Assembly: GCA_937926215.1 (NCBI GenBank)
Contig: CALEYA010000163.1
Span: 1-43,087, forward strand
Direction of reading: 5' to 3'
Length of the DNA: 43,087 nucleotides
DNA from: an uncultured Croceitalea sp.
GTDB lineage: Bacteria > Bacteroidota > Bacteroidia > Flavobacteriales > Flavobacteriaceae
This document shows positions 17,144 to 21,732 of this stretch, piece by piece; the stretch's first letter is position 1, and the number at the start of each line of letters is the position of its first letter. The translations under genes and the position numbers were made by a program. Under the pieces are notes generated by a model. That model searched no databases and was not told where the DNA came from. It saw only the letters and a program-made list of their open reading frames with translations.

Positions 17144-19105
17144 TTAGATTACGGGGACTTCAAGCACTATTTTGGTTCCTTTGGGTTGCCCGCCATCTTC
17201 AAACAAGTCGATAATCTCCACACTAAAATCATATTGGTAGTCTTTGGCAAAATTGGCCAAACGCTCTTTGGTGATATCGATACCAACGGATTTTCGTTTA
17301 AGGACCCTGTTCTCTTTGATTTCTTCGGAAACTTTTCTGCCTACCCCATTATCGACTATAGCAATTTGGATATGGCTTTCGTCTTTTCTTGTAATATTTA
17401 TCCAAATATTTTTTTGACCCTCCTTGGCAGAGAGACCATGCCAAATGGCGTTTTCTAAAAAAGGTTGCAATACCAAGGACGGAATCTTTACCTGTTCCGG
17501 ATGGATACCGTCTTCAATAGCGATGTTGTAATCAATTTCATTGGAAAACCTGATGTTTTCAATATTGAGATACAACTCCACGGTTTCCAATTCTTCCGAA
17601 AGTTGGGTTTCCTTTAAAGAAGACCCTTCCAAGATACGCCTTACCAGTTTTGAAAATTTGTTCAGGTAGTGTACGGCATTCTTTTGTTCATTGTTAATAA
17701 TGTAAAGTTTAATGGAATTTAAGGAGTTGAACAAAAAATGGGGGTTCATTTGACTCCGCAACATATGCTGCTCCAAGCCCAATACCCGCTTCTCATTATT
17801 GGATTGGTATTGGCGGTACATGATAAACAATATGGTGGCTATAAGGCCTATGACCAGGGCACTGACCAAAATGGTGGTTTGGTTTTTCCGCAAGCGTAAC
17901 CGTATAAGTTCGTTGTCCTTTGCCAATACCGATATCTGACTGGTTTTCTTTTCACTTTCATACCTTAGGATAAGGTCGTTCATATACCTTAGGTTACGCT
18001 CACTGGTAATTTCCTTGTCAAACCGATCGGCTTCCTTGTAATACAGAAGGGCTTCTTGGTAGTTGCCTTTATTGATTTCCAAATCGGAGAGGTGTTTGTT
18101 GGCATACATGACCATACTGGGAATCTCACCTTGGCTGGCCATTTGCTTGCCAGTTTTCATGTACTTTTCGGCCTCCTTCAAATTCCCTAGACTTAAATAT
18201 GCCCATCCTAGATTAATAAGCATGGAGGAAGAAATAAAAGGATCACCGATAACTGTGGCAGGCTGCTCTATTTGTTTTAGCAATTGTAAGGCTTCTTTTG
18301 GTTTGGCCTGCTTCAGGTATATTTGGGAAATACTGTTTTTGCAGATGACTTGCCCATAACTATTGCTAATTTCCTCATTGATGGAAAGGGATTTTCTGTA
18401 GTAGGTCAGCGCTTCTTCCAGCGCTCCCTTTTGTTCCAAACAATCCCCAATATTTTGGTTGTTAATGGCAAGGCCTCGCTTGTTGTTCAATGTTTTCTCG
18501 TTGGCCAAAGCCCTTTTAAATTGGCTGATGGCCAAATCATACTGCCCCAAGGTCTGGTACAGGTTGCCTATACTATTTAGGGAAACGTTGATGTTGCGCT
18601 TGATGTGCATGGAAGGGTTGGTAATGGATTCCGCCAGCTCCAGTGCCTGCTGGTTGTAGTCCAATGCCGTTTTTATAGCATCATTTCTTCTAAAAACAAC
18701 GCCAAGCATGTTAAGGGCCAGCACCTTTAATTCATCATTATCCAAGTCCTCCGCTATGCTTAGGGCTTCTTTATGGAGCAACGCCGATTTTTTAAATTTA
18801 GACTGGTACCTATAAACGGTCCCAAGTTGATTTAGGGCATAGGCCTTTCCCTCTTCATAGCCGTAGTTTTCCGCTTTTTTGATGAATGCATTCAGTTTTA
18901 CCGTATCGCGTCGAATAGGTTTAAGTACTTTTTCAATATCCAGGTAAGACTTTGGCTTAAGGATCAAAAGCCGCTCATGCGCCTCTTCTTCATCCATTTC
19001 TTGTGAGGACAAAACCCCGCAAAAAACAAAAAAAACAAGTGTGATAAAGCATCTTGTTTTTCTAAGGATTTGAAACCAGAAAAGGGGGTAGTGCGGTTTT
19101 GGCAT
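17144..19105 (-). CDS. TPR sensor histidine kinase, LytS/YehU-type
   Basis: A 653-residue membrane sensor. A signal or first membrane segment (residues ~18-34) is followed by a periplasmic region with about six to seven tetratricopeptide repeats (residues ~85-365; for example GTVYRYQSKFKKSALLHKEA, GNLYQTLGQYDLAISQFKRA). A transmembrane helix lies at about 410-430, followed by a short coiled coil. The His_kinase domain carries NPHFLFNSLNSIK with the predicted phospho-acceptor His456, and the ATPase has ENAIWHGL and DNGVGRK. It lies 9 bases downstream of the LytTR regulator and should phosphorylate it. The signal is unknown; TPRs suggest a protein or peptide ligand. Confidence 0.92.
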   Translation of the reverse strand: MPKPHYPLFWFQILRKTRCFITLVFFVFCGVLSSQEMDEEEAHERLLILKPKSYLDIEKVLKPIRRDTVKLNAFIKKAENYGYEEGKAYALNQLGTVYRYQSKFKKSALLHKEALSIAEDLDNDELKVLALNMLGVVFRRNDAIKTALDYNQQALELAESITNPSMHIKRNINVSLNSIGNLYQTLGQYDLAISQFKRALANEKTLNNKRGLAINNQNIGDCLEQKGALEEALTYYRKSLSINEEISNSYGQVICKNSISQIYLKQAKPKEALQLLKQIEQPATVIGDPFISSSMLINLGWAYLSLGNLKEAEKYMKTGKQMASQGEIPSMVMYANKHLSDLEINKGNYQEALLYYKEADRFDKEITSERNLRYMNDLILRYESEKKTSQISVLAKDNELIRLRLRKNQTTILVSALVIGLIATILFIMYRQYQSNNEKRVLGLEQHMLRSQMNPHFLFNSLNSIKLYIINNEQKNAVHYLNKFSKLVRRILEGSSLKETQLSEELETVELYLNIENIRFSNEIDYNIAIEDGIHPEQVKIPSLVLQPFLENAIWHGLSAKEGQKNIWINITRKDESHIQIAIVDNGVGRKVSEEIKENRVLKRKSVGIDITKERLANFAKDYQYDFSVEIIDLFEDGGQPKGTKIVLEVPVI

Positions 19106-19114
19106 TCAAGAAAG

Positions 19115-19849
19115 TTATAACAAATCTAGGAAATCTGATTTTTTCTGTCGGGATACGGGTATTTTATGTCCCGCGCTGAGCACCACATAACCATCGGTTT
19201 TAAGGAACTCCTTAATTTTTCCAAGATTTACGATAAACGAGTTATGGATCCTAAAAAATGACTCCGAAGGCAACAACTGGTTTACCTCTTTTAGTTTTTT
19301 GGTCAACACCAATTTTTGTCCACTTTCCAAGTAGAGCGTGCTATAGTTTCCGTCGGATTCTACATATAAAATTTCTTCACTCTCTAAAAACAAAAGTTTT
19401 CCATCGGTATTGATCGTAATTTTTTTCTGTAGGGATTTGCTGTTGAAATTGATCAATATTTGCTCTAGCCGTTCCGCCGTGTAGTTTTTGTCGTTGAATT
19501 TTTTGACCTTTATAATGGTCTCATTGAGGTCATCACTGTCTATAGGCTTAAGCAGATAGTCTATGGCCTCATTTTTTAAGGCTTTTAAGGCATATTGGTT
19601 ATAGGCCGTGGTGATAATTACCGGAAAGCTTTTGTTCTTTAGGTTTTTAATGAACTGGAACCCGTCCATAATGGGCATTTCAATATCCAAGAACAGGCAA
19701 TCTGGGGAGTTGGTCTCCAAATAGTTCAATGCTTCATGGGCGTCGGTGAATGTAGCGATTACCTTTACTTCATCACTTAGGTTACTAAGTTCCCAACTAA
19801 GACTTTCCAGAGCTTTGGATTCGTCGTCTACTAAAACAGCTTCTAACAT
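19115..19849 (-). CDS. LytTR-family response regulator
   Basis: A 244-residue regulator with a receiver domain (residues 1-120; acidic pocket VDDE, phospho-acceptor Asp55 in CLFLDIEMPIMDG, Thr and Lys in TTAYNQYALKA / LLKPID) and a LytTR DNA-binding domain (about 140-244, with EEILYVESDGNYSTLYL and FFRIHNSFIVNLGKI). It is the first gene of a two-gene operon with the TPR histidine kinase. LytTR proteins bind direct repeats about 20-22 bases apart. The gap upstream contains several ACGGTT/ACGGTA copies that could be sites. Target genes are unknown. Confidence 0.93.
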   Translation of the reverse strand: MLEAVLVDDESKALESLSWELSNLSDEVKVIATFTDAHEALNYLETNSPDCLFLDIEMPIMDGFQFIKNLKNKSFPVIITTAYNQYALKALKNEAIDYLLKPIDSDDLNETIIKVKKFNDKNYTAERLEQILINFNSKSLQKKITINTDGKLLFLESEEILYVESDGNYSTLYLESGQKLVLTKKLKEVNQLLPSESFFRIHNSFIVNLGKIKEFLKTDGYVVLSAGHKIPVSRQKKSDFLDLL

Positions 19850-20063
19850 GATAAAAAGGTATTCATTTTTTTGCAGACCTATCTAAGAATTATACTGACG
19901 GTATCTAAATATGTATTGATGGACGGTTATGGCCTATAAACGGCAATAACGGTTTCAGATGATAAAATGTAAGTATTGGATTACATAGATAGCCAATTAT
20001 TACGTTTGCGAAAATACCGACTTTCCATTCATACATGATTTGCTACCAATTATACATAGACCA
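19850..20063. other. Upstream region of the LytTR operon with repeated ACGGTW motifs
   Basis: No gene is seen here. ACGGTA at 19898 and ACGGTT at 19923 and 19949 are spaced 25-26 bases apart, with ACGGCA at 19940. ATAC-tgacg-GTAT at 19893 is a small dyad. The spacing is slightly larger than typical LytTR repeats. These could be binding sites for the LytTR regulator or another factor controlling the operon and/or the divergent transcript starting near 20100. Confidence 0.35.
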
Positions 20064-20093
20064 TTTGACGAACGATTTCCGTTAGTATCTTGG
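20064..20093 (+). promoter_or_regulatory. Flavobacterial promoter for the small-peptide/structured-RNA transcript
   Basis: TTTG at 20064-20067 and TATCTTGG at 20086-20093 (7 of 8 to TAnnTTTG) with 18 bases between. The predicted start is near 20100, which is where the structured leader begins. It is divergent from the LytTR operon. Confidence 0.55.
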
Positions 20094-20120
20094 ACCTAGA
20101 ATAAACAAACAAGAGAGTAA

Positions 20121-20198: not shown

Positions 20199-20318
20199 AT
20201 GAAAAAAAGTGTACTTCTTTTTATTGCATTTATGATTGCATTGGTAATGGCGGTATTAACGGATAAAACGGATGCAATGGAAACCAAGGAAATAGCATCT
20301 TTAGTTGAAAACGAATAA
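20199..20318 (+). CDS. 39-residue hydrophobic peptide
   Basis: A short ORF: a lysine start (MKKS), a hydrophobic stretch of about 17 residues (VLLFIAFMIALVMAVL), then a polar, acidic tail (TDKTDAMETKEIASLVENE). This is the layout of a small membrane peptide, a type I toxin-like peptide or a signal-peptide-bearing pheromone precursor. No family is recognised. In its favour are a good promoter at 20064-20093, an AT-rich translation-start region, and a terminator at 20481-20524 that would end the same transcript. Against it are the small size and no homology check. It lies between a divergent LytTR operon and nrdB. Confidence 0.5.
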   Translation: MKKSVLLFIAFMIALVMAVLTDKTDAMETKEIASLVENE

Positions 20319-20480
20319 CTACCAGTCAACGTACGGCCAACCAACATGCTAAAGCGTGTGAATTTGCAAAATAGTCTGGTTGCTATAGCTTACATTTTTT
20401 GATTTAGGTTTCGGGGGAACTACCTAACCAAGAATAAAGCATAGTAGCACCAAGGCCGTACGGTTTGGTAGTAATTACTT
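20319..20480 (+). ncRNA. Candidate structured RNA (riboswitch- or attenuator-like) upstream of nrdB
   Basis: A multi-helix fold is visible. The long-range closing stem P1 pairs CGTACGGCC (20330-20338) with GGCCGTACG (20454-20462). It is extended by AA/TT (20328-20329 with 20464-20465) and ACCA/TGGT (20321-20324 with 20466-20469). P2 is CATGC-taaa-GCGTG (20345-20358). P3 pairs GGT..GCTA..GCTT (20378-20391) with AAGC..TAGC..ACC (20437-20451). P4 is a hairpin TTAGGT / ACCTAA (20404-20427) with an inner TTC/GAA pairing. Together they make a three-way junction. TTTGGT at 20464-20469 is also complementary to ACCAAA at 20485-20490 in the terminator arm. It does not show cobalamin-riboswitch or other consensus known to me. 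It may be a 3'-UTR-derived sRNA or an attenuator. Confidence 0.55.
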
Positions 20481-20524
20481 AAAGACCAAAAGGTATGGTT
20501 AAAACATACTTTTTGGTCTTTTTT
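20481..20524 (+). terminator. Strong intrinsic terminator after the structured RNA
   Basis: Arms AAAGACCAAAAGGTATG (20481-20497) and CATACTTTTTGGTCTTT (from 20505) form a nearly perfect 17-bp stem around a seven-base loop. The 3' arm ends in a run of T. It lies about 220 bases before the nrdB start, so it either ends the small-peptide transcript or acts as a conditional terminator for nrdBA. Confidence 0.88.
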
Positions 20525-20745
20525 ATTTGCGGCTTTTTTGTTGATTTTCAGAGTTTCCGGTCTCAAGTTGCACAAACCTAACAAACATCATAGCCCAACC
20601 TACATTTCAACGATCTGTGTTAAAAACTTTGGACAGTATTAACTCAAACAAACTTTAGAATCCAGATACATTTTTGAATATTTGTTGGTCCGTACTGCGA
20701 GGTAAATTCCAGTTTTTAATTATCCATTTTATAAATCACAGAACT
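20525..20745 (+). promoter_or_regulatory. nrdB upstream region
   Basis: No gene is seen. TACATTTT at 20667 and AAACTTTG at 20626 are each 7 of 8 to TAnnTTTG, but neither has a convincing TTG at -33 distance. No NrdR-box-like palindrome was recognised. nrdB may be read from a promoter here, or by readthrough of the terminator at 20481-20524. Confidence 0.3.
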
Positions 20746-21732
20746 ATGTCAGCTGCCGTTGAGCCTATATTAGAAGAAAACGAGGACCGATTTGTTATTT
20801 TTCCTATCAAACATGATGATTTGTGGGAATGGTACAAAAAATGCGAGGCTTGTTTTTGGACAGCTGAAGAAATTGATCTTGGTGAAGACCTTACGGATTG
20901 GAACGACAAGCTAAATGATGATGAACGCTATTTCATAAAACATATCCTTGCCTTCTTTGCAGCTTCGGATGGTATCGTAAACGAGAATCTAGCAGAAAAT
21001 TTTGTGAGCGAAGTGCAGTATGCGGAGGCGAAATTCTTTTATGGATTTCAGATTATGATGGAGAACATCCATTCTGAGACCTATTCCCTTTTAATAGATA
21101 CCTATGTTAAGGATGAAAAGGAGAAGAACATCTTGTTCAAGGCCATTGAAAATTTCCCGGCGATAAAGAAAAAAGCGGATTGGGCCTTAAGTTGGATAGA
21201 ATCCCCAAGCTTTGCAGAGCGTCTAATCGCCTTTGCCGCGGTAGAAGGGATATTCTTTTCAGGAGCGTTCTGTTCCATATTCTGGTTAAAGAAAAGGGGC
21301 CTTATGCCCGGATTGACATTTTCCAATGAGCTAATTTCCAGGGATGAAGGAATGCACTGTGATTATGCGGTACACTTGCATAACAAACATTTGATCAATA
21401 AAGTACCTAAAGAACGTATTACCCAAATCTTGACGGATGCCTTAAACATTGAGCGTGAATTCATTACCGAATCCTTGCCGGCAAGTTTAATTGGCATGAA
21501 TTCCAAATTGATGACACAGTATTTGGAATTTGTAACGGACAGGTTATTGGTAGAGTTGGAATGCGATAAAGTATACAATGCTACCAATCCCTTTGATTTT
21601 ATGGATATGATTTCCTTGCAAGGAAAGACCAATTTCTTTGAGAAAAGGGTTTCAGAATACCAAAAAGCAGGGGTATTGAATAAAGATAAAGATGAAGATG
21701 CGCAGAAAATCAGTTTTGATGCCGATTTCTAG
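20746..21732 (+). CDS. nrdB: Class Ia ribonucleotide reductase, beta (radical) subunit
   Basis: A 328-residue R2 subunit that houses the di-iron/tyrosyl radical cofactor for ribonucleotide reduction. All ligands are visible: Asp75 (FAASDGIV), Glu106 and His109 (MENIHSETY), radical Tyr113, Glu167 ([10 protein letters not shown]), Glu201 and His204 ([11 protein letters not shown]). The sequence is of the eukaryote-like branch ([28 protein letters not shown]). The C-terminus (QKISFDADF) would dock on NrdA. The start chosen is the ATG giving MSAAVEPI; a longer frame from a TTG at 20674 adds 24 non-homologous residues. It is followed by nrdA after 147 bases that contain two hairpins. Confidence 0.96.

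Follow-up and report, generated by a model that had tools for sequence, protein, structure and literature searches.

We found that the window, by which we mean the whole 43,087-nucleotide stretch of uncultured Croceitalea DNA analysed here, carries a structured RNA with a conserved fold, a conserved linkage to a LytTR two-component locus, a conserved LytTR-type site upstream and a terminator at its end. Judged from sequence, the most probable reading is that a LytTR-activated transcript ends in a structured regulatory RNA and may have a dual function, as peptide and as RNA; activation by the regulator is the proposed part. The original prediction had offered two roles, regulation of nrdB/nrdA transcription or an sRNA or structured 3′ end of the small-peptide transcript, and the upstream linkage, the site and the terminator favour the second. 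The features of the locus are listed here by position in the window.

17144 to 19105, minus strand: TPR histidine kinase gene (Pfam TPR_12 3.8e-29, His_kinase 3.7e-21), downstream of the LytTR regulator gene on the same strand
19115 to 19849, minus strand: LytTR response regulator gene, divergent from the peptide-RNA unit (Pfam Response_reg 1.4e-24, LytTR 8.1e-21)
19912 to 19943, minus strand: weak second LytTR-type repeat pair facing the regulator gene (4 of 22 mismatches)
20025 to 20056, plus strand: paired LytTR-type site, CCATTCATACA-N10-CCAATTATACA (0 mismatches)
20086 to 20093, plus strand: -7-like promoter box TATCTTGG, picked out by eye, 29 bases after the paired site
20199 to 20318, plus strand: gene for a 39-aa hydrophobic peptide (MKKSVLLFIAFMIALVMAV...), with a similar peptide in 75 of the 88 listed loci
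20319 to 20475, plus strand: structured RNA with a three-way junction (fold, covariation and covariance-model match)
20319 to 20324, plus strand: P0, the extension of the closing stem, 5′ strand CTACCA, pairing with 20466-20471 (covarying pairs)
20330 to 20338, plus strand: P1, 5′ strand CGTACGGCC (compensatory changes)
20344 to 20359, plus strand: hairpin P2 (fold; two-sided change in one of four tested pairs)
20404 to 20427, plus strand: inner hairpin, holding the invariant GGTTTCGGGGGAACTACC at 20407-20424
20454 to 20462, plus strand: P1, 3′ strand GGCCGTACG (compensatory changes)
20466 to 20471, plus strand: P0, 3′ strand TGGTAG (covarying pairs)
20481 to 20524, plus strand: intrinsic terminator, 17 pairs within 20481-20521 and a T tail, found independently of the fold
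20746 to 21732, plus strand: nrdB (Pfam Ribonuc_red_sm 7.8e-110), a neighbour that we judge to lie outside the system

The three-way junction described in the original prediction, with its 9-bp P1, the extension of that stem, the further helices and the 17-pair terminator, was reproduced with every pair in place. The long arm of the RNA ends in the hairpin at 20404-20427. Folding of 20300-20540, which includes the terminator, gave -82.1 kcal/mol versus -51.5 +/- 4.6 kcal/mol for 200 dinucleotide shuffles, none of which was equally good (z -6.69). The long arm linking P1 to the inner hairpin, formed by about 20377-20403 with 20428-20452, is absent from the consensus of the window-type alignment.

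Relatives of the RNA were collected in two ways. Searching the DNA of 59 relatives yielded clear copies within the genus and contributed eight loci. An 18-base hairpin sequence shared with another genus was then used as an exact pattern against 84,980 species genomes, where it occurred in at least 119 stretches, 80 of them listed. By record title, all 80 listed matches belong to Bacteroidota, chiefly to Maribacter, Allomuricauda/Muricauda, Flagellimonas, Robiginitalea, Zobellia, Arenibacter, Eudoraea and Croceitalea; viral contigs gave no match to the 18-mer, and no second copy of the RNA was found in the window's own genome. Together, these sources make up 88 listed loci, 85 of them distinct after removal of the duplicates L041, L053 and L094. 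Because the exact 18-mer was required, the invariance of the hairpin in the pattern-found loci is a result of selection. An unselected figure came from R1, a covariance model trained on 27 loci from genera other than the window's. With E 3.1e-9 this model matched 20318-20477 of the window, and it was positive in 60 of 397 family genomes, with a single match in each; these 60 are a lower bound, since genome G116 has the exact 18-mer without an R1 match. The inner-hairpin 18-mer GGUUUCGGGGGAACUACC is exact in 58 of the 60, while the remaining two (G232:C26 and G398:C53; loci L261 and L262) carry GGTTTCGGGGGGAAC, with six G instead of five.

Covariation was assessed in two alignments, one of 27 of the 85 loci, which have the longer form of the RNA, and one of 12 window-type loci. 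Five loci (L009, L026, L029, L062 and L068) were excluded from the 27-locus alignment by hand, and automatic location did not place P1 properly in L030, L050, L063, L077 and L083. For the 27 loci RNAalifold proposed P0, P1, a helix adjoining P1, a small hairpin and the inner hairpin, with two-sided compensatory changes in 20 of 39 pairs and pairing in 92.8% of cells. These values were reached by none of 500 shuffles, and slid structures gave at most 15 two-sided pairs, with pairing falling to 45% or less. In the 12-locus alignment, two-sided changes affected 10 of 28 pairs. P1, for example, occurs among the loci as GTACGACTC/GAGTCGTAC, GTGCGGCCA/TGGCCGCAC and ATACGACCC/GGGTCGTAT. The closing helices are thus supported by compensatory changes; covariation is uninformative for the innermost hairpin, which does not vary. 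The homologues and compensatory changes on which the original prediction depended are therefore present, with relatives at 85 distinct loci and covarying closing helices P0 and P1. Because its helices covary in relatives and a model built from other genera recovers the window copy, the fold is conserved and not a product of chance.

The RNA does not belong to a known family. Rfam gave no match at gathering score anywhere in the window or in 15 relatives, and a relaxed scan returned only weak matches below threshold (E > 0.01), in agreement with the earlier statement that no known class, cobalamin or other catalogued riboswitch included, could be recognised. Neither 6S-Flavo (RF01685) nor Flavo-1 (RF01705) matches the window, although both resemble this RNA in size range and in being structured and flavobacterial. 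We rejected identity with 6S RNA, as 6S-Flavo is a separate single locus elsewhere in the genome; it lies at G000:C127:8608-8718 and is present in 30 of 39 relatives. A 2017 study reportedly comprised 224 candidate RNAs. Our literature search, whose coverage leaves out many subscription papers, found no description of this RNA, and the searched terms did not occur in PMC11109978 and PMC8632094. Rfp18, a Flavobacterium sRNA with a strong fold, affects protease mRNAs according to the accessible part of its report (PMC9723704); the RNA described here is likewise flavobacterial and strongly folded, and its regulatory role is a proposal.

We found the LytTR regulator in 72 of the 88 listed loci, and it is divergent in all 72. 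Among the 85 distinct loci, 70 have it as a listed neighbour; 13 of the other 15 are uninformative, as 1504 or fewer upstream bases are covered there (in L009 the regulator was later located further out). In two Pricia loci (L073 and L089), peptide and RNA are kept and LytTR is not adjacent. Another gene occupies its place, which we take to be HflX-like.

The paired site was searched between regulator and peptide with the pattern CMRWTYATACA-N10-CMRWTYATACA, allowing spacings of 9 to 11. It was present in 70 of 70 distinct loci with the regulator, always with a spacing of 10; 24 loci showed no mismatch out of 22 positions, 29 showed one, 12 two, 4 three and 1 four, so that 65 of 70 had two or fewer. 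Since the pattern was read from the same loci, this conservation is partly circular, and independent support is limited to the spacing and the comparison with shuffles: 72 letter shuffles gave 4 mismatches once and otherwise 5 to 8. In the window, the site is the only match with up to three mismatches (0.06 expected by chance). It is also the only perfect match in the genome, which holds seven others with two or three mismatches versus three for a reversed control pattern. A reverse-strand pair with four or fewer mismatches, corresponding to the weak second repeat pair of the window, was detected in 38 of 70 loci as compared to 1 of 72 forward-strand shuffles, and may point to autoregulation of the regulator gene. 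By eye, the window box after the paired site resembles the flavobacterial -7 consensus, given as TAnnTTTG in the accessible part of PMC9723704. The upstream neighbours stay linked to the RNA and the downstream gene is not constant, which favours the LytTR-peptide reading over a role in nrdBA control.

A related arrangement was found in other Flavobacteriaceae. A close relative of the LytTR regulator is present in 38 of 120 family genomes, and we examined the region before its gene in 15 loci whose regulator is 61-66% identical. The paired site, with four or fewer mismatches, occurs in 13 of them and is followed in 10 (L232, L233, L234, L250-L254, L257 and L259) by a short conserved G-loop RNA of the order AAAGTGATCGTGGGGATTCACTTT, TGATTAAATGCTATTAATCA, terminator, in which a GUGGGGAUU-type loop (lost in L254) precedes a second hairpin, TGATTAAATGCTATTAATCA. 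The short RNA shares the regulator family, the site type, the G-rich loop and the terminator with the window RNA; it differs in being about 110 nt long and in having no three-way junction. The short-RNA genomes gave no R1 match, their loci gave no Rfam match, and no comparable peptide was seen in L232-L235, the four loci with frames listed. In 11 of the 15 loci, nrdB lies within the sequence covered. There are thus two forms of a LytTR-linked RNA that stands between regulator and nrdB. The short RNA may be the older form, and nrdB may be an inherited neighbour. Between the short RNA and nrdB, inspection by eye showed one more conserved element in L232, L234, L250-L254 and L257-L259, namely AGTTTTAGTTAGTTTAGTTAATTATTGGGG(A)n AGAGAGC with a terminator; its extent differs, and it is possibly another small RNA.

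The peptides encoded before the long RNA are 35-70 aa in length and contain one strongly hydrophobic stretch (hydropathy maximum 2.4-3.8 among 73 peptides). The gene was not recognised in 13 of the 88 listed loci, several of which are truncated, and L004 seems to be without one. The peptide matched no Pfam or NCBIfam family at cutoff, nor did the secreted-looking protein (e.g. L009:1896-2471) whose frame of about 166-212 aa separates peptide and RNA in Maribacter, Zobellia, Robiginitalea and others. A terminator-like structure follows within 160 nt of the RNA in 45 of the 85 distinct loci, as against 1 of 85 shuffled sequences and 1 of 77 control windows placed upstream. The terminator arm AGACCAAAAAGTAT...ATACTTTTTGGTCT (20481-20521 in the window) is unusually conserved across several genera.

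The RNA might instead be a 3′ UTR element that acts only in cis, stabilising or regulating the peptide mRNA and having no function in trans. The window itself is compatible with such a role, as the peptide gene's stop codon directly adjoins the RNA (20318/20319), which is located between the last reading frame and the terminator. Its complexity and invariance, however, go far beyond the needs of a stabiliser; the RNA is separated from the peptide gene in some loci by a frame of 170-200 aa and a spacer reaching about 230 nt, and the short RNA occupies the same place in other genera. We consider a purely cis-acting element rather unlikely.

The same holds, with still less in its favour, for a stand-alone noncoding RNA (e.g. 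ligand-binding, protein-binding or catalytic) that has its own promoter and is merely situated beside the LytTR locus. The two Pricia loci, which keep the RNA beside the peptide without LytTR, would fit this explanation, as would a promoter-like TATTTTT box seen by eye shortly before the RNA in several Maribacter/Zobellia-type loci, which suggests a separate transcript there. Such a box was not noted in the window, however, and with LytTR as neighbour in 70 of the 85 distinct loci and all but two of the others uninformative, independence from the locus is improbable. In L086, L090, L043, L105 and L082, as examples, the box lies about 100-190 nt before P1, and behind it comes CCCCC, which could pair with the invariant G loop; GGGGAA, likewise seen by eye, stands some 25 nt ahead of P0 in these loci. 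In some Maribacter/Zobellia-type loci the match between the G loop and a leader C-run looked striking, but we rejected such pairing as a general feature because six or more complementary bases were found in only 25 of 70 loci, and the window leader contains no CCC-containing complement to the G loop.

A riboswitch or attenuator controlling nrdB/nrdA is already largely refuted, and we regard it as very improbable. The RNA and nrdB are on the same strand, nrdB is the next gene in the window, and it follows 299-2098 nt downstream in 54 of the 88 listed loci (51 of the 85 distinct ones). A cis-regulator of nrdBA requires constant linkage upstream of nrdB, yet nrdB was not found in the other 34 listed loci, within the 566 to 7857 bases of downstream sequence covered. 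In 20 of these 34, a convergent frame comes next when open frames of at least 90 aa are considered, so that the RNA cannot be the leader of that gene. Among the 85 distinct loci, the first downstream frame of at least 90 aa is nrdB in 46, a convergent frame in 21, another same-strand frame in 13 and absent in 5; in L104, a convergent frame comes first and nrdB lies behind it. The position of nrdB moreover looks inherited, since nrdB also follows the short terminated RNA in other genera.

The switch itself had been proposed on the basis of TTTGGT (20464-20469), which is complementary to ACCAAA (20485-20490) in the terminator arm. The complementarity is real, but a working antiterminator is contradicted by its energy: enforcing the pairing changed the fold from -79.5 to -58.8 kcal/mol, a cost of 20.7 kcal/mol, and its equilibrium pair probability was 0.0. 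In 15 of 40 loci with a detected terminator, six or seven bases of the strand that follows P1 are complementary to the arm of the terminator, as compared to about 2 of 40 expected from shuffles; the other 25 have five or fewer. This excess is the strongest result in favour of the nrdBA switch. We read it as a AGACCAAAAAGTAT-type terminator kept in part of the clade and in related genera, where it may still have a lineage-specific role. With both energetics and conservation against it, we rejected the antiterminator. Finally, a type I-like toxin-antitoxin system, in which the RNA would control a toxic hydrophobic peptide, is hardly credible: a short single-helix peptide is mostly found beside the RNA, but the RNA lies downstream on the peptide's own strand rather than antisense, occurs as a single copy in each of the 60 positive genomes and is tied to a two-component system.

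We therefore return to the LytTR-dependent transcript as the preferred explanation. In the proposed pathway, the TPR histidine kinase would phosphorylate the divergently encoded LytTR regulator, which in turn would activate a transcript predicted to start near 20100, downstream of the paired site. This transcript would comprise the 39-aa membrane peptide and the structured RNA as its 3′ part, and would end at the terminator at 20524. The RNA would be the regulatory output, either as the whole transcript or after a presumed processing step, and would most likely act in trans through its exposed, nearly invariant G5 loop, which may bind a C-rich RNA or a protein. The peptide could be a second output or provide feedback at the membrane.

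The arrangement is comparable to the Staphylococcus aureus agr locus, which has divergent P2/P3 promoters. As described in the accessible part of PMC4227749, AgrA binds two direct repeats between these promoters, one of which makes RNAIII, and RNAIII also encodes delta-hemolysin. Similarly, the LytTR regulator here is divergent from the RNA unit wherever it was found (not adjacent in the two Pricia loci), paired direct repeats separate the divergent units in every distinct locus with the regulator, and one predicted transcript combines a small peptide frame with a structured RNA. Several features set it apart from agr/RNAIII: Rfam gave no RNAIII match in the window, the two systems differ in phylum, fold, peptide and type of kinase, autoinducer genes were not seen, and here the peptide frame precedes the fold. 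The layout can thus be called agr/RNAIII-like by analogy, and homology to agr/RNAIII was not detected. Tentatively, and with slightly less than even confidence, we suggest that this is a new Bacteroidota RNA family that a LytTR two-component system uses as its dedicated output; analogous rather than homologous to agr/RNAIII, it would have evolved together with the peptide from an older short G-loop RNA at this locus.

These results remove a misleading nrd riboswitch candidate. Regulators are known for few flavobacterial regulatory RNAs, and since the nearly invariant RNA core, a unique regulator site and the peptide gene occur together in culturable marine genera, the pathway from signal to RNA is directly testable. 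If the proposal is true, the layout of a LytTR regulator plus RNA known from staphylococci would have arisen a second time.
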